Positions 1,771 to 8,761 of a DNA stretch of 64,000 bases are shown here, in pieces. Numbering within the stretch: position 1 is the stretch's first letter; each line of letters starts with the position of its first letter. Made by a program: the position numbers and the translations under genes. The notes under the pieces are model-generated. The model saw only the letters and a list, made by a program, of their open reading frames with translations, had not been told where the DNA came from and searched no databases. The DNA is from a candidate division Zixibacteria bacterium HGW-Zixibacteria-1 (GTDB lineage Bacteria > Zixibacteria > MSB-5A5 > GN15 > PGXB01): the NCBI GenBank assembly GCA_002838945.1, contig PGXB01000016.1, forward strand, positions 1 through 64,000. The letters are read 5' to 3'.

Positions 1771-2994
1771 ATGGATAAAGAAATGTTAACAGAAGAAACG
1801 GCCAGGGCAGTTCCGGAGAAATGGCCCTTTACGCCGCATGTGATAAAATTGGAAACTTCAATCATTCGTGAAATTCTGAAAATCTCCTCGCAGCCGGGCG
1901 TCATTTCACTGGCCGGCGGTTACCCTTCGCCCGACAGTTTCCCTCTCGAAGACCTGAAAAAAGCGGCTGTTGATGCCATTGATGAATTCCAGTCGGCCGC
2001 CACCCAGTATTCATTATCGATGGGGATTGTCCCGCTGCGCGAAGCCATTGCCCGGCGCGAAACCAAATCGGGCGCCGAGACGAAGCTGGAGAATATCCTG
2101 ATCACTTCCGGCTCTCAGCAGGGCATTGAATTATGCGCGAGGGCCTTTATCGATCCCGGCGATTATATTATCACCGAGCATCCCACCTATGTCGGCGCCT
2201 TGCAGGCCTTCAATTTCTACCAGGCCAAATATGCATCGGTGGAAATGGATGAAAACGGCATGATTGTGGATCAGGTCGAAGATGCCATCAAAAAATATAA
2301 ACCCAAATTGATTTATACCGTGTCCACTTTTCAGAATCCAACCGGGATTACCATGAGCACCGACCGGAAGAAGGCGCTGATAGAGACGGCCCTTAAGTAC
2401 AATATTCCGATTGTCGATGACAATCCCTACGGCGAGCTGCGTTTTTCAGGCAAAGCGATTCCATCGATGAAGGCGCTCGGCGGCGACGCGGTGATATCTT
2501 TGGGGACATTTTCCAAGATTATCGCCCCCGGTTTGCGCATTGCCTGGATGAATTGCTCGACAAAAATTATAAATATTTTCGAGAAGGTCAAGCAGTGCGC
2601 CGATCTTCATGCCAATACTTTTACACAGTACATGATATTCAAATATATCCAGGCCGAAAAGCTGGACGATCATATTAAGAAGATTATTGTCAATTACGGC
2701 GCCAAGCGCAATCATATGCTGAAACTGATGGACAAGCATTTCCCTTCGGAAATAAAATGGACGCGCCCCGAAGGCGGTCTTTTCCTGTGGGGCGAGTTGC
2801 CGGAGCCGATGTCGGGCCGGGATTTGCTTCCCAAGGCGATTGAAAACAAGGTTACTTATGTTTACGGCCGGCCGTTTTTCCCGGACGGCTCCGGTGACAA
2901 CACTTTCCGCCTGAATTTCTCGAATGCATCACTGGAGACAATTACGCTGGCCATCGAGCGGCTGGGCAAAGTGTTCAGGGAAAATCTGCCCTGA
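1771..2994 (+). CDS. Class I PLP-dependent aminotransferase (2-aminoadipate/MocR-like branch)
   Basis: The 407-residue protein is a fold-type I aminotransferase transferring amino groups between an amino acid and a 2-oxo acid. The cofactor lysine is K249 in SLGTFSKIIAPGLR, and ISLAGGYPSPDSFP near the N terminus and FQNPTG in the middle are typical of the LysN/2-aminoadipate branch that resembles the catalytic half of MocR regulators. No DNA-binding domain is attached. It is followed by a good terminator, so it is probably a single-gene unit and not in an operon with the dapF-like gene. Substrate cannot be told from sequence; aromatic amino acids, 2-aminoadipate or branched-chain amino acids are all possible. 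Confidence 0.88.
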   Translation: MDKEMLTEETARAVPEKWPFTPHVIKLETSIIREILKISSQPGVISLAGGYPSPDSFPLEDLKKAAVDAIDEFQSAATQYSLSMGIVPLREAIARRETKSGAETKLENILITSGSQQGIELCARAFIDPGDYIITEHPTYVGALQAFNFYQAKYASVEMDENGMIVDQVEDAIKKYKPKLIYTVSTFQNPTGITMSTDRKKALIETALKYNIPIVDDNPYGELRFSGKAIPSMKALGGDAVISLGTFSKIIAPGLRIAWMNCSTKIINIFEKVKQCADLHANTFTQYMIFKYIQAEKLDDHIKKIIVNYGAKRNHMLKLMDKHFPSEIKWTRPEGGLFLWGELPEPMSGRDLLPKAIENKVTYVYGRPFFPDGSGDNTFRLNFSNASLETITLAIERLGKVFRENLP

Positions 2995-3018
2995 GACACG
3001 ATTAAATTTCGAGTTTTC

Positions 3019-3040
3019 AGCCCCGCCTTTGTGCGGGGCT
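3019..3040 (+). terminator. Intrinsic terminator
   Basis: A perfect eight-pair GC-rich stem (AGCCCCGC at 3019-3026 and GCGGGGCT at 3033-3040) with a six-base loop is followed by a T run to 3044. It closes the aminotransferase unit. Confidence 0.9.
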
Positions 3041-3042
3041 TT

Positions 3043-3072
3043 TTGCTTTACAAATATTATTAAAACTATATC
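3043..3072 (+). promoter_or_regulatory. Candidate promoter for the dapF-like gene
   Basis: TTGCTT at 3043-3048 and TATATC at 3067-3072 are 18 bases apart and lie directly after the terminator. Transcription would begin near 3079, only a few bases before the ATG at 3082, and there is no clear ribosome binding site. A leaderless message is therefore possible. Confidence 0.35.
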
Positions 3073-3081
3073 TTGAGCCTC

Positions 3082-3933
3082 ATGAAAAAGATTGAATTTT
3101 ACAAATATCACGGTCTGGGCAATGATTTTTTAATCATCGATCTGATGAAGAAACGCCCCGCTGTGCCGGACTATAATAAGCTTGCCGAAAAAATCTGCAA
3201 TCGCAGTTTCGGCGTCGGCGCCGACGGTATCCTGGTATTGACAAAAAGCCGCCGTGCCGATTGTTGCATTGACCTTTTCAATTCCGACGGTTCCTGGGCC
3301 GAAAAATCGGGCAACGGACTCAGAATTGTAGCGGCATATTTCCACAGCAATTACGCCCGAAAGAAAAAACTTGCTTTTGAAATCAATGATGAAATTGCCG
3401 ATGCGGAGATTATTAAAAGCGGTTCGAAAGGTTTTTCCATCAAAGTCTCTCTGGGCAAACCTGATTTTGAGACGAAACGGGTGCCGATGAAATCAAATGG
3501 GAAGTTTCATATCAATGCCCCGATCGAAATTGAAAAAACGAAATTTCCCGTAACCGTCTTGTCTGTCGGCAATCCGCATACGGTTCTGTTCGTGGACAGG
3601 TTTGATTTCGACTGGAAGGAACTGGGTAAGATAATTGAACACAGTAAATACTTCCCGCATCGCACCAATGTGGAGTTTGTCAATATTGTCAGCCGGTCCA
3701 AAGTCGTTCTGAATGACTGGGAACGCGGTGCGGGCGCGACCGGATCGTCCGGTACCGGCGCGGCGGCCGCGGTTGTTGCCGGTGTTGTTAATGGCTATAT
3801 AAATCGCAAGGTTGAAGTCGTTTTTCCTGCCGGGTCCCTTTATATCGACTGGTCCGAAAAGGATGATAATATTTACTTGACCGGGCCGGTTGCATTTATC
3901 TGCAAGGGCGAGTATCTATTTGACGCCGAATAA
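3082..3933 (+). CDS. Diaminopimelate epimerase homologue with both catalytic cysteines replaced by serine
   Basis: DapF normally interconverts LL- and meso-diaminopimelate using two cysteines as acid and base. This 283-residue protein is full length and keeps the substrate-contacting motifs: GLGNDF, FNSDGS, GNPH, TNVEF and ERGAG. The first catalytic position, normally CGNG, is SGNG (Ser TCG at 3307-3309). The second, normally CGTG, is SGTG (Ser TCC at 3748-3750). By family knowledge, cysteine-to-serine changes abolish epimerisation, so ordinary DapF activity is doubtful. It could bind diaminopimelate or a similar compound, or catalyse something else. A TTG at 3073 is in frame, but the ATG at 3082 begins exactly where DapF proteins usually start. 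The downstream MFS gene follows after 20 bases and is probably co-transcribed. Confidence 0.85.
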   Translation: MKKIEFYKYHGLGNDFLIIDLMKKRPAVPDYNKLAEKICNRSFGVGADGILVLTKSRRADCCIDLFNSDGSWAEKSGNGLRIVAAYFHSNYARKKKLAFEINDEIADAEIIKSGSKGFSIKVSLGKPDFETKRVPMKSNGKFHINAPIEIEKTKFPVTVLSVGNPHTVLFVDRFDFDWKELGKIIEHSKYFPHRTNVEFVNIVSRSKVVLNDWERGAGATGSSGTGAAAAVVAGVVNGYINRKVEVVFPAGSLYIDWSEKDDNIYLTGPVAFICKGEYLFDAE

Positions 3934-3953: not shown

Positions 3954-5261
3954 TTGTCGGTCGAATGGAATAATACAGCGGGGCGCAATATATTCGGGAA
4001 AACATCGGCAGGAATTGCCGACTATTGGCGTCATCTGCAGCTTTTTTCTCGAAACGTCCGCCTATATCTGGCTGCCTCATTTCTGATCGGACTGACTTTT
4101 GCCGGTTACCAGCTTTTGCTTAATCTTTATCTTCGAGAGCAGGGTGCGGCGGAATCATTTATCGGAAACGTATTATCAGCCGGCGCGGTCGGGATGACCC
4201 TGACTTCGATTCCGGCGGCATTTATCCTGCGGCGAATAAAACTCAAAAAGATTCTCCTGATAAGTACTGCCATGTATGCTTTATCGATTTATGTCCTGAC
4301 CTGGCTGCCGGTGTCCTCATGGTTGATTGTCGTTTCATTTACAGCCGGTATCGCCACGACTTTTTATCGGGTGGCGGCGGCGCCTTTTTTTATGCGAAAC
4401 ACGACGCCGGAAGAAAGAACCTATGTTTTTTCGTTATCATTCGGGGTATCACTTCTGGCCAGCATCTTTGGCTCCATATTATTCGGCAAAATGGTGACCA
4501 CGCTGGCTCCGATGATAGGAGGAATGATTTCTGCTTATCGCTGGACCTTTGTGGCGAGTATCGGATTGGGGCTGACATCCTTGATTCCATTTGCGATGAT
4601 AAAGGCGGCCGATCCGGCCGCCGAAGACAAAAAGGCTATATTTTCGTTATCTTTGCTGAAAAGCCGGCTGGGGCTTTACTCCAGACTATTTTTACCATAT
4701 TTTGTGGTCGGTTTAGGTGCCGGGCTGATTATTCCGTTTCTCAATCTCTATTTTCGGGACCGTTTCGGGCAGCCTCCCGATAAGATCGGTCTGTTTTTTA
4801 CGGCGGTCCACGCGACCATGTTCCTTGGTATTCTGGCCGGCCCGGTTCTGGCCCGTAAATTGGGCATGGTTCGATCATTGGTCTGGACACAGGTGATTTC
4901 CATCCCGTTTATGGTGGTCCTGGCCTATACATATTCGCTGGAGTTGGCTTTTTTTGCGTTTCTTATCAGGGGGGGGCTGATGAATCTGGGGCAGCCGATC
5001 GGAACCAATTTCGGGATGGAGGTGGTCGATGAATCCGAGCAAGCCTTTGTCAATGCTTTATTTATGTTTGGGTGGAATTCTTCATGGATGGTATCAACCG
5101 TTGTCGGCGGCCGGCTGATCGAGGCTTACGGCTATACACTGCCGTTAATGATTACGGCAGGGCTTTACATGCTCTCTTCAATTTTGTATTATATATTTTT
5201 CAGGGACTCGGAACGGAAAACAGACAGCGGTTTTAAAGTAATAATGGCGGATAATGGCTAA
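3954..5261 (+). CDS. Major facilitator superfamily transporter
   Basis: This 435-residue inner-membrane protein has about twelve hydrophobic segments, after a cytoplasmic N-terminal stretch of roughly 35 residues. Overall shape and length fit MFS exporters; the substrate cannot be predicted. The start is TTG at 3954, supported by TGGAGT at 3941-3946. The gene lies 20 bases after the dapF-like gene and overlaps the next small gene by eight bases, suggesting one transcript running from 3082 through argS. If the unit is functional rather than accidental, the transported compound might be related to whatever the dapF-like protein binds, but this is speculation. Confidence 0.85.
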   Translation: MSVEWNNTAGRNIFGKTSAGIADYWRHLQLFSRNVRLYLAASFLIGLTFAGYQLLLNLYLREQGAAESFIGNVLSAGAVGMTLTSIPAAFILRRIKLKKILLISTAMYALSIYVLTWLPVSSWLIVVSFTAGIATTFYRVAAAPFFMRNTTPEERTYVFSLSFGVSLLASIFGSILFGKMVTTLAPMIGGMISAYRWTFVASIGLGLTSLIPFAMIKAADPAAEDKKAIFSLSLLKSRLGLYSRLFLPYFVVGLGAGLIIPFLNLYFRDRFGQPPDKIGLFFTAVHATMFLGILAGPVLARKLGMVRSLVWTQVISIPFMVVLAYTYSLELAFFAFLIRGGLMNLGQPIGTNFGMEVVDESEQAFVNALFMFGWNSSWMVSTVVGGRLIEAYGYTLPLMITAGLYMLSSILYYIFFRDSERKTDSGFKVIMADNG

Positions 5262-5589
5262 GATAAAATTCAAGCTGGAAAAGGATGAGGTCGCCCGGCA
5301 GATACATTTTATTCTGCGGGAGCTTTATCCCGATTTGAGCATTGATCCGAAGTTGGTTTATGAACTGGTGGTCGAGACTGTCCCCGACGGCGCCGGATTC
5401 CGTTTCGAGGCGGCTCGGCTTGCCGAGAGAATCGGTCTGGAAAAAAAACATTTGGCGGCCGGTCTTTATCGGGAGCTGGGTGTGGAATTCGAAAAAAACT
5501 GGCATGACAAATCATATTTTGAAATAAAGATGGTCGGAGAGTCGATTGGTTTTCAACTCCTGAATTGGAAAAAAGATGACAAAAGATAA
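5254..5589 (+). CDS. Small protein of unknown function wedged between MFS and argS genes
   Basis: I do not recognise this 111-residue protein. It is soluble, rich in charged residues, and predicted to be mostly helical, with a C-terminal strand-like stretch (KSYFEIKMVGESIGFQLL). It overlaps the preceding MFS gene by eight bases and argS by fourteen, and keeps a normal codon pattern, so it is very likely real. Its position directly before argS suggests a small partner of the synthetase, but there is no motif to support that. The synthetase has its own N-terminal domain, so this is not a split-off piece of it. Confidence 0.65.
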   Translation: MAKIKFKLEKDEVARQIHFILRELYPDLSIDPKLVYELVVETVPDGAGFRFEAARLAERIGLEKKHLAAGLYRELGVEFEKNWHDKSYFEIKMVGESIGFQLLNWKKDDKR

Positions 5590-7387
5590 ATTCAAAATTG
5601 CGATTTCCGAATGTACGGCTAAAGCATTCATTGAATTGCTGCCCTCGCTTTATGAAGAGCAACCCGATCATTATCTATTCGATGGCGGGCGACTGTATGA
5701 GATGCTCGAAACTCCCAAGAAACCGGAGATGGGCAATACCGCCCTGCCGCTGTTTTCGCCGGCCAAAGAAATCGGCAAAAATCCGATGGAACTTAATAAG
5801 CAATTGGCCGAAGCTCAAAATCGCATTACCCGAGATAATGATGATTACTCATTTCTGAGTTTTACCGCGGTGGGCGGGTTCAATAATGCCCGAATTGCCA
5901 CCGAGGCGCTGGCCTCGGCGACACTTCCCCTGATCATCAGCCAGGACGAGGATTATGGTTCATCGAATGAAGGCGGCGGCAGAAATATCGTCATCGATTT
6001 TTCATCGCCCAATATTGCCAAGCCTTTCGGCGTGGCGCATCTCAGGACGACGGCGCTGGGGCATTCGCTGTACCGGATATTCGAGAAACTGGGATATAAA
6101 TCAATCGGCATAAATCATCTCGGTGACTGGGGAACGCAGTTCGGGAAAATGATTGTCGCTTTCCGGAAATGGGGACGGGAAGAGGATCTTGAAAGGGACG
6201 CCGTTCTCAAGCTTTATGATTTGTATGTGAGATTTCATAGAGAAGAAGAAACCGATCCATCCCTAGCCGATGAGGCCCGTGAAGCTTTTCGAAGACTGGA
6301 ACAGGGTGAGCATGATGAGGCGCATCTATGGAATTTGTTCAAGGAAGTCTCACTGGAGGCCTTCAAGGAAACATATAAAATGCTCGGCATCCATTTCGAC
6401 TATTTTACCGGAGAGTCATTCTACAACGAAAAAATGCCGGAGGTGGTCGAAAGATTAAATAAAGCAGGGTTGACCCGGATTTCGGAAGGGGCGCTGATTG
6501 TCGATCTCGATAAATTCGGGCTACCGCCATGTATCCTGGCCAAAGGCGACGGAGCCACGCTTTATGCCACCCGCGATATAACCGGAGTCGTGTACCGCTG
6601 GGAGACTTTTAATTTTCACAAGGCTTTATATGTAGTCGGGACCGCCCAGCGGGATCATTTCAAGCAGGTCTTCAAGGTCATTGAATTGCTTGAAGAAGCG
6701 GAAAATGTTCCGCCGGAAAAGCGCTGCTCGCAAAATCTGGAACATGTTGAATTCGGATGGATCAAATTCAAGGATCAGACGATGTCCACCCGGAGGGGAA
6801 ATATTATTTTACTCGATGATGTCCTGGATAAAGCGATCACGCTCGCCCGCGAAAAGATCGCCGAGAAAAATCCGAATCTGGAGCTGATCGACCAGACCGC
6901 CCGGCAGATTGGCATCGGGGCGGTGTTATTTGCCGATATGTCGGCCCGCCGCATGAAAGATATCAATTTCGACTGGGATGAGGTTCTTAATTTCGAGGGA
7001 GAGACGGGGCCGTATCTGCAGTACACCCATGCCCGGCTGTCCTCGCTGCTGCGGCATTATGATATCGAGTCGTCGGCTGAGGTTAATTATTCGATGCTGG
7101 ATAATCCGGAAGAACATCGCGTTCTTGATTTACTCTATAAATTTCCGGAAACAATCAACGAGGCGGCGCGTAATTATGAGCCATACCTGATCGGTTCCCA
7201 TTTAATTGAACTGGCCGGGGCCTTTAATAAAGTGTATCAGCGCAAGGATGACACGGGTCGGATGGACAAAATTATATCCGATGATCCCGAGCTGTCGGCG
7301 ACCCGCATGGCGCTGGTCAAGGCGGTGAAAATTGTCATTCAGGAAGGTTTGTATTTAATGGGGATCGAGGCCCCCGATGAAATGTAG
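5576..7387 (+). CDS. argS: Arginyl-tRNA synthetase
   Basis: ArgS charges tRNA-Arg with arginine in the cytoplasm. The 603-residue protein has the additional N-terminal tRNA-binding domain, then SSPNIAKPFGVAHLR, in which the class I HIGH motif reads GVAH as in several bacterial ArgS proteins. The KMSKS loop is replaced by MSTRRGN, also typical of ArgS. The C-terminal anticodon-binding helical domain begins near FEGETGPYLQYTHARLSSLL. It overlaps the preceding small gene by 14 bases, and the next gene starts nine bases after its stop, so all are probably co-transcribed. Confidence 0.97.
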   Translation: MTKDKFKIAISECTAKAFIELLPSLYEEQPDHYLFDGGRLYEMLETPKKPEMGNTALPLFSPAKEIGKNPMELNKQLAEAQNRITRDNDDYSFLSFTAVGGFNNARIATEALASATLPLIISQDEDYGSSNEGGGRNIVIDFSSPNIAKPFGVAHLRTTALGHSLYRIFEKLGYKSIGINHLGDWGTQFGKMIVAFRKWGREEDLERDAVLKLYDLYVRFHREEETDPSLADEAREAFRRLEQGEHDEAHLWNLFKEVSLEAFKETYKMLGIHFDYFTGESFYNEKMPEVVERLNKAGLTRISEGALIVDLDKFGLPPCILAKGDGATLYATRDITGVVYRWETFNFHKALYVVGTAQRDHFKQVFKVIELLEEAENVPPEKRCSQNLEHVEFGWIKFKDQTMSTRRGNIILLDDVLDKAITLAREKIAEKNPNLELIDQTARQIGIGAVLFADMSARRMKDINFDWDEVLNFEGETGPYLQYTHARLSSLLRHYDIESSAEVNYSMLDNPEEHRVLDLLYKFPETINEAARNYEPYLIGSHLIELAGAFNKVYQRKDDTGRMDKIISDDPELSATRMALVKAVKIVIQEGLYLMGIEAPDEM

Positions 7388-7396
7388 ATTGTAATT

Positions 7397-8761
7397 ATGA
7401 ATACAAGAATATATCCGATTAAAATAATCCCCCCCTATCTGTCCTTTTCAGGAGACCACAATGCGACTCAGGCGGCTCTGATGCTGGCCGCATTGGCGAA
7501 GGGAAAGACGGTAATAAGAAATGCCGGAACCGGAGTCGATACCAACCGGACCATCGGCTTTCTAAAGAAGCTGGGTGTTGAATTCAGCCATGATGACAAC
7601 GGAATTACGGTGGAGGCAGACCGGAAGCTGAATGTCCCGGAAGATGATACGCTGGAGTACAAGGGCGGAATTTTTACGCTGTCATTGATTTTGGGCATGC
7701 TGACGGGATTGAATCGCTCCTGTTGTTTAAAGTATTCCGAAGTCGTCAATCATGATATTATTGACAGCATCGTCGAGGTCCTTAATGCCAACGGGATTGA
7801 CATCTTTCATGAAGCCGATTCGCGGACGGTGGTAATAAGGGCCGCGGCCGAGTTTCCGATCGACATTCGAATTACATCATCGTTGTCATTTTTGAAAAAT
7901 TGCCTGCTGATGTTCGGGCTGGTGTCGGGACAATCGGTTCTGATCCGTGAAATTCGGATTACCAATGACATTTTCCAGAATTATGTCGCGCGATTCGGTA
8001 CGGGTTTGGAAATGGACCGGCCCAAGCCGATTATTAAACCGGATCCCAATGACCCGCGAAAAAAAGTTAGAACGACTGGAGTGGATTACAGGCAGGAAAT
8101 CAGGCTGGCGTCCAATACGGAGTTGCAGGGGTTCGAGATCGACCTGCCGCCCGATTCGGACATGATAACCGCCCTGATGGCGCTGGCAATATTGAATAAG
8201 AAAAATATTACTTTCGACGGTATTCCGCTGGACAGAGTAAGAACGAAGTTTATCAATTATTTGAAGGCCTGTGGCATCGAGCCGGTCATCACCGACCGCA
8301 AGGCGGTTGACGGCATTCAGTTCGGCACGGTGACCTTAAAAGGAGCCGAGCTCAAGGTCCGCAAGACAGCCGGGGAGCAGGCGGCGGCCCTTATCGAAGA
8401 CATACCGTTTATGGCGGCGATGGCCTCGCTGGGAACGGGGACTTCGATAATCAGGGGAGTTCGCGAGTTTTCCGAGTGGGGAATCGATCCTTTCGTGGAG
8501 ATTGCCGGGAATCTCGAAAAGATTAATGTAAAATGCGGAATACTGGAAGATGGACTGGTAATAGAGGGCACCAATGAAATAACCGGCGCCGATTTTGGGC
8601 CGTTTCTGAATCCCAAAGTTGCCCTGGCCTTTTTTGTCCTGTCGCTGTCGGGGCAGGGCTGGTCAACGCTTGATAATTTTGAACTCATTTCCGATCATTA
8701 TCCTGATTTTATCAGCTTGGTGCAGGATTATTCGAAGGAGCCGGTTATTTCCCGGGATTAG
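7397..8761 (+). CDS. EPSP synthase-fold protein lacking the usual catalytic residues
   Basis: The 454-residue sequence aligns by eye along its length with 3-phosphoshikimate 1-carboxyvinyltransferase (AroA), for example AALMLAALAKGKTVIRNAG near the N terminus, EDIPFMAAMASLGTGTSIIRG in the middle and a terminal SDHYPDF. Active-site motifs are changed. The N-terminal GSKSxxxR reads GDHNATQA, so the lysine and arginine are lost. The KESDR loop reads SEWGIDP, and DHRxAM reads NPKVAL. The middle Asp of DIP is kept. Normal EPSP or MurA chemistry is therefore unlikely, and the protein may be a pseudoenzyme or have a new activity. It sits nine bases after argS; a MATE gene follows after 68 bases. Automatic annotation would probably call it AroA, which I would not accept. 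Confidence 0.75.
   Translation: MNTRIYPIKIIPPYLSFSGDHNATQAALMLAALAKGKTVIRNAGTGVDTNRTIGFLKKLGVEFSHDDNGITVEADRKLNVPEDDTLEYKGGIFTLSLILGMLTGLNRSCCLKYSEVVNHDIIDSIVEVLNANGIDIFHEADSRTVVIRAAAEFPIDIRITSSLSFLKNCLLMFGLVSGQSVLIREIRITNDIFQNYVARFGTGLEMDRPKPIIKPDPNDPRKKVRTTGVDYRQEIRLASNTELQGFEIDLPPDSDMITALMALAILNKKNITFDGIPLDRVRTKFINYLKACGIEPVITDRKAVDGIQFGTVTLKGAELKVRKTAGEQAAALIEDIPFMAAMASLGTGTSIIRGVREFSEWGIDPFVEIAGNLEKINVKCGILEDGLVIEGTNEITGADFGPFLNPKVALAFFVLSLSGQGWSTLDNFELISDHYPDFISLVQDYSKEPVISRD

Follow-up and report, generated by a model that had tools for sequence, protein, structure and literature searches.

Diaminopimelate (DAP) epimerase, DapF, is a racemase of a type for which a pair of catalytic thiols is taken as the defining trait, and the locus described here raises the question of what such a protein may do once both thiols have been replaced by serine. 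The locus lies in a 64,000-nucleotide stretch of DNA from the candidate division Zixibacteria bacterium HGW-Zixibacteria-1 (hereafter the window; positions 1 to 64,000 of contig PGXB01000016.1, assembly GCA_002838945.1) and consists of a dapF-like gene at positions 3082–3933 of the forward strand, whose product has Ser76 and Ser223 in the places of the two catalytic cysteines. Automatic annotation labels the Zixibacteria proteins as DAP epimerases. The Ser/Ser trait proved to be lineage-wide, and thus broader than could be seen from the window alone, and the protein may be a functional member of the DapF fold for which the thiols are optional.

The reading frame is uninterrupted from the ATG at 3082 to a stop codon ending at 3933 and encodes 283 amino acids, with an in-frame TTG at 3073 as an alternative start. 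Re-reading of the sequence bore out the coordinates and both serine codons given in an earlier note on this DNA. By sequence the product belongs to the DapF family, matching the equivalog model TIGR00652 at 241.5 bits (cut-off 114.65); its sole Pfam match is DAP_epimerase (PF01678), and the closest solved structures by sequence are DAP epimerases. The AlphaFold model (predicted local distance difference test, pLDDT, 96) has as its nearest PDB entry the closed, ligand-bound DapF structure 9mro, with a template modeling (TM) score of 0.90 and a root-mean-square deviation of 1.8, which places the predicted structure within the DapF fold. In this model, Ser76 immediately precedes helix 77–90 and Ser223 immediately precedes helix 224–236. 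The protein lacks the two catalytic cysteines of DapF (CGNG and CGTG), of which the PROSITE DapF signature includes cysteine (PMC8225329). The gene is single-copy in the genome (3.83 Mb, 96.7% complete), and a second, cysteine-type dapF was rejected because there was one match in all, even at E-values up to 10.

Homologues were drawn from the order of the window's genome, from its class, and from five outgroup genomes. All 55 complete homologues of the order have serine at one site at least, and 52 of them, when examined for the same pair as the earlier note had proposed, are Ser/Ser; the remaining three are one Cys/Ser sequence (L007) and two Ser/Cys sequences (L040 and L045; the residue at site 76 is given first). 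Chance or sequencing error is excluded by these counts, since even the three exceptions retain serine at one site. Among 92 Zixibacteria homologues, 61 are Ser/Ser, 16 Cys/Ser, 4 Ser/Cys, and 11 Cys/Cys, and no residue other than cysteine or serine occurs at either site. The Ser/Ser state is also found in family f5 and, distant on the tree, in family f18, and Cys/Cys occurs in families f6, f8, f14, and f15 and in one member of f17. The five outgroup sequences are all Cys/Cys, and plasmid and phage collections yielded 14 further readable homologues, all Cys/Cys, and one viral contig with Ser/Ser. In all, both sites were legible in 20 homologues from other phyla or from mobile elements, of which 19 are Cys/Cys and the exception is this one phage-like contig. 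The viral contig IMGVR_UViG_3300035326_000440 (L172/L192) carries its own Ser/Ser DapF homologue at positions 2923–3768, which is 35% identical and has GNPN for GNPH. This gene adjoins a serine recombinase, the end of which overlaps a truncated sigma factor resembling the sporulation factor SigG, and the contig looks like an element that has integrated within a Firmicute sporulation gene.

Parsimony on an IQ-TREE tree requires a minimum of four state changes at site 76, five at site 223, and eight for the pair, although the number and order of these events are approximate because many deep branches are weak, and the tree was built with both trait columns included. Cysteine is nested within Ser/Ser clades in L007 and in L040/L045. 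When 276 alignment columns were tested, 245 had at least four changes, and just two of these 245 alternate between only two residues, namely the two catalytic columns. Switching between cysteine and serine, with no other residue, suggests that a protic side chain of such a size is required among the sequences sampled. The gene is otherwise intact, as the earlier note had held. The frame is open in 96 of 97 homologues examined, and the ratio of nonsynonymous to synonymous substitution rates (dN/dS) is about 0.09–0.18 in Ser/Ser pairs and 0.13 in a Cys/Cys pair. As judged from these sequences, purifying selection is strong, without visible relaxation in the Ser/Ser lineages, which argues against neutral decay following a loss of function.

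The ligand pocket is nearly constant throughout. Residues K8, N14, D48, G49, N67, D69, N78, R81, and P165 are invariant in the 92 homologues, as are N196, E214, R215, T220, and G226; N164 is kept in 91 of 92, and position 166 is histidine in 89 and glutamine in 3. The histidine and glutamate corresponding to His166 and Glu214 are described as essential in DapF (PMC5885031). In DapF, the ligand's α-carboxylate binds to the backbone that follows both catalytic residues (PMC12039745), and by alignment G77/N78 and G224/T225 are the equivalents in the window protein. The residues that grip diaminopimelate at its two amino-acid ends are kept, as far as alignment with DapF structures, from which the ligand contacts are taken, can tell; the earlier note had already listed the substrate-binding motifs of this pocket.

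Presence or absence of pathway genes was judged by searches of genomes with family models, scored against the model cut-offs. None of 67 Zixibacteria genomes (two sets of 30 and 38, with G000 in both) yielded DapB, and the same search was positive in 11 of 14 control genomes. No match exceeded the cut-off for DapL (40 genomes), LysA (40 genomes), or LysX (38 genomes), and DapA exceeded it in one of 37 (G006), where the gene was not counted as DAP synthesis because its neighbors look like aromatic catabolism. Every known bacterial route to DAP depends on the products of DapA and DapB. The window's genome itself has no dapA, dapB, dapL, or lysA over cut-off (dapD, dapE, and ddh were not searched), so that the DapF homologue could not be assigned to a DAP/lysine pathway there, and murE is present. 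The DapL bypass, which the earlier note had suggested seeking along with a cysteine-containing dapF, was not found either; the best matches (about 110–140 bits against a cut-off of 365) are general aminotransferases. The aminoadipate lysine pathway through LysX was rejected in the same way, there being no match over cut-off. A LysA candidate in G000 was also set aside, as its match of 180 bits is below the cut-off of 297.9 and the gene adjoins a spermidine-synthase-like gene; it is probably an ornithine/lysine-type decarboxylase. LysA-like decarboxylases of 262–274 bits, slightly short of the same cut-off, occur in three genomes of family f2 (L057–L059; G018, G021, and G015), all three without dapB and G018 also without dapA; in G018, this gene adjoins a transporter-like gene. 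A role as a substitute for glutamate racemase, as for Chlamydia DapF, was rejected because MurI was found in 35 of 36 genomes.

Peptidoglycan synthesis is represented by MurE, which has the DNPR motif wherever the scripts detected the motif (a few were missed), whatever the state of DapF, and the MurE of the window's genome passes the DAP-ligase model NF001126 at 518 bits (cut-off 373). Family f16 (G104–G107) has no detectable DapF homologue; MurI is present in G104 and G105, and MurE, of the DNPR type, in G104, G105, and G106. Since the DAP pathway was unrecognized by model searches, Zixibacteria probably have another source both of lysine and of the residue at position 3 of peptidoglycan. 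The literature that we searched contained no report on lysine or DAP biosynthesis in Zixibacteria.

With both thiols gone and no recognizable DAP genes, the protein does not appear to be the classic DapF of the DAP/lysine pathway. We favor, at a probability of roughly 0.45, the view that the protein is functional, keeps the DapF fold without depending on thiols, and transfers a proton on an amino acid resembling DAP, serine standing in for cysteine; the ligand class, the reaction, and the role of the serines are what we infer. The ligand would be an amino acid shaped like DAP, such as lanthionine, cystathionine, or DAP itself, presumably scavenged or made in another way, as no DAP route was recognizable. 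The reaction would be transfer of the α-proton, either as epimerization or as a one-base lyase or dehydratase variant, and Ser76 and Ser223, each placed at the N-terminus of one of two helices that face each other, may replace the thiols together with His166 and Glu214. This role for serine is modeled on the Ser/Cys 4-hydroxyproline epimerase and the Ser/Thr trans-3-hydroxyproline dehydratase. The exchange of cysteine for serine alone, with His166 and Glu214 intact, favors a protein that still carries out chemistry over one that only binds a ligand. The most specific form of this proposal, a natural cofactor-independent epimerase or racemase with a Ser/Ser pair, assisted by His166 and Glu214, whose substrate resembles DAP and whose phylum has DAP-type MurE without the known DAP pathway, seems to us rather doubtful.

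Several observations weigh against the favored reading. Serine is a common and good helix N-cap, and this preference could explain part of the restriction to cysteine and serine without catalysis, so that the restriction by itself does not prove catalysis. The absence of a detectable DapF homologue from family f16 suggests that members of the phylum can do without this function. Engineered DapF-type racemases with cysteine changed to serine have <0.1% activity (PMC8225329) or a greatly reduced turnover (PMC11602996). The published precedents for serine retain one cysteine or act on a non-DAP substrate, and the literature searched contained no Ser/Ser pair with epimerase activity.

The alternative that survives best, although we consider it unlikely, is a non-catalytic binding or regulatory protein for a DAP-like amino acid or a peptidoglycan fragment, in which the epimerase activity has been lost and the serines cap helices. 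It would account for the loss of both thiols in a fold whose Cys-to-Ser variants are nearly inactive (PMC8225329), for an invariant pocket, and for the lack of a remaining DAP pathway to serve. However, serine reverts to cysteine inside Ser/Ser clades and never gives way to alanine, threonine, glycine, or asparagine, the partners His166 and Glu214 are retained, and Pfam assigns no output domain, DNA-binding or otherwise, to the 283 residues.

A narrower form of the favored reading is a lyase or dehydratase, in which one serine with its histidine or glutamate partner takes the α-proton and a β-group leaves a DAP-like amino acid such as lanthionine, cystathionine, or a β-hydroxy analogue. Trans-3-hydroxyproline dehydratase, which has Ser/Thr instead of Cys/Cys (PMC4113996), provides a precedent (PDB 4k7g, TM score 0.75 to our model), and a one-base reaction makes a second thiol unnecessary. 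The known dehydratase, however, has a non-catalytic threonine at the second position, whereas both sites in Zixibacteria stay cysteine or serine, and the substrate is purely hypothetical, which makes this version improbable in our estimate.

Slightly less probable again is an ordinary DAP epimerase for which Ser/Ser is good enough, making meso-DAP from scavenged LL-DAP for DAP-type peptidoglycan. The DNPR-type MurE passing NF001126, the intact DAP-binding residues, and the status of this gene as the sole dapF in the genome would all fit, but genes for DAP synthesis were not found, serine variants retain so little activity (PMC8225329), and family f16 has a DNPR-type MurE without a detectable DapF homologue. 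Finally, a decaying or mis-sequenced dapF, which the loss of both catalytic residues could by itself suggest, is refuted by the presence of serine in dozens of independent metagenome-assembled genomes, by the open frames, and by the low dN/dS. The view in the earlier note that this is not an ordinary DAP epimerase is supported by the missing thiols and the unrecognized dapA, dapB, dapL, lysA, and second dapF, whereas the three roles that it offered instead (a binding protein, a new isomerase, or serine chemistry) are inseparable by sequence.

The surroundings of the gene (Table 1) are conserved. A block of polIV, aminotransferase, dapF, major facilitator superfamily (MFS) transporter, and argS is kept wholly or partly across most of the class, including the Cys/Cys families, and because it includes the unrelated argS and polIV, the context is weak functional evidence. 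The aminotransferase is the conserved upstream neighbor of dapF over most of the class, at a gap of merely about 20–60 base pairs in the Cys/Cys families f14 and f15. An operon of the two genes was rejected for the window, where the strong terminator between them makes co-transcription unlikely. The earlier note had placed a terminator behind dapF and credited the gene with its own promoter; the strong terminator instead sits before dapF and ends the aminotransferase gene, and the promoter-like site at 3047–3074 is no better than chance (five sites found, 3.8 expected). It was right that an MFS gene comes next, and the same gene directly follows dapF in families f1, f2, f5, f10, and f17. The interval between the MFS gene and argS holds an open reading frame of 111 amino acids (5254–5589) without a Pfam match, which is 37–55% identical in several relatives. 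At 7397–8761, an aroA/MurA-like protein (118 bits against a cut-off of 287), also present in the dapF–argS block of many relatives, is possibly a divergent enzyme of the 5-enolpyruvylshikimate-3-phosphate synthase fold.

Table 1. Features of the dapF-like locus in the window.
Feature	Position	Strand	Evidence
Pyridoxal-phosphate (PLP) aminotransferase, related to LysN/2-aminoadipate aminotransferase	1771–2994	+	PDB 1wst, 1x0m, 3aov, 2egy at 271–333 bits; synteny
Intrinsic terminator upstream of dapF, 8-bp stem and T tail, ending the aminotransferase unit	3019–3040	+	Sequence
DapF homologue with Ser/Ser active site, 283 aa	3082–3933	+	TIGR00652 score; AlphaFold model
Ser76 codon TCG, first catalytic Cys position, SGNG for CGNG	3307–3309	+	Alignment; AlphaFold model
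His166 (GNPH), counterpart of the essential DapF His	3577–3579	+	Alignment; PMC5885031
Glu214 (ERG), counterpart of the essential DapF Glu	3721–3723	+	Alignment; PMC5885031
Ser223 codon TCC, second catalytic Cys position, SSGTG for ACGTG	3748–3750	+	Alignment; AlphaFold model
MFS transporter, 20 bp past dapF	3954–5261	+	Pfam MFS_1; synteny
argS, conserved downstream gene of the block	5576–7387	+	TIGR00456, 435 bits; synteny

The 92 natural sequences, with four combinations of cysteine and serine in near-constant pockets, make the exchange of a hydroxyl for a thiol in 1,1-proton transfer testable. A DAP-type MurE in genomes without the DAP synthesis genes searched for also raises the question of the identity and source of the residue at position 3 of peptidoglycan.

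Among known enzymes, the PhzF isomerase family has the same fold and a different chemistry that is independent of a cysteine pair. PhzF (PDB 9f96 and 1u1w) is 11% identical to the window protein and differs in its catalytic residues and substrate, and the window protein, which keeps the DapF motifs and has no PhzF match in Pfam, falls outside that family. The DapF-like histidine racemase HisR of Fusobacterium nucleatum serves a different substrate in a host that does not synthesize DAP (PMC11602996). HisR (PDB 9cr1) resembles the Zixibacteria protein in having the DapF fold without DAP synthesis in the host, but identity is only 15–17% with a TM score of 0.66, and HisR keeps and needs both cysteines, which sets the window protein apart from HisR and CntK. 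The proline racemase superfamily contains active enzymes with natural serine, including the Ser/Cys 4-hydroxyproline epimerase and the Ser/Thr trans-3-hydroxyproline dehydratase (PMC4113996). These share a related fold and a serine at the first catalytic position, as with Ser76, but they are about 10–15% identical, act on proline-type substrates, and have cysteine or threonine at the second site; by sequence, the window protein is not a member of the proline racemase family. DapF itself (TIGR00652; PDB 9mro, 3ejx, 2otn, and 1bwz) has the fold, length, pocket motifs, and essential histidine and glutamate in common with the window protein, and differs in that both of its catalytic residues are cysteine, whereas the window protein is Ser/Ser in a genome without recognizable DAP biosynthesis genes. 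No natural Ser/Ser DapF was reported in the literature searched. The engineered DapF variants C73S and C217S (PDB 2q9h and 2q9j) each carry serine at one of the two catalytic positions; they are single mutants made in the laboratory, whereas in Zixibacteria both changes are natural and lineage-wide.
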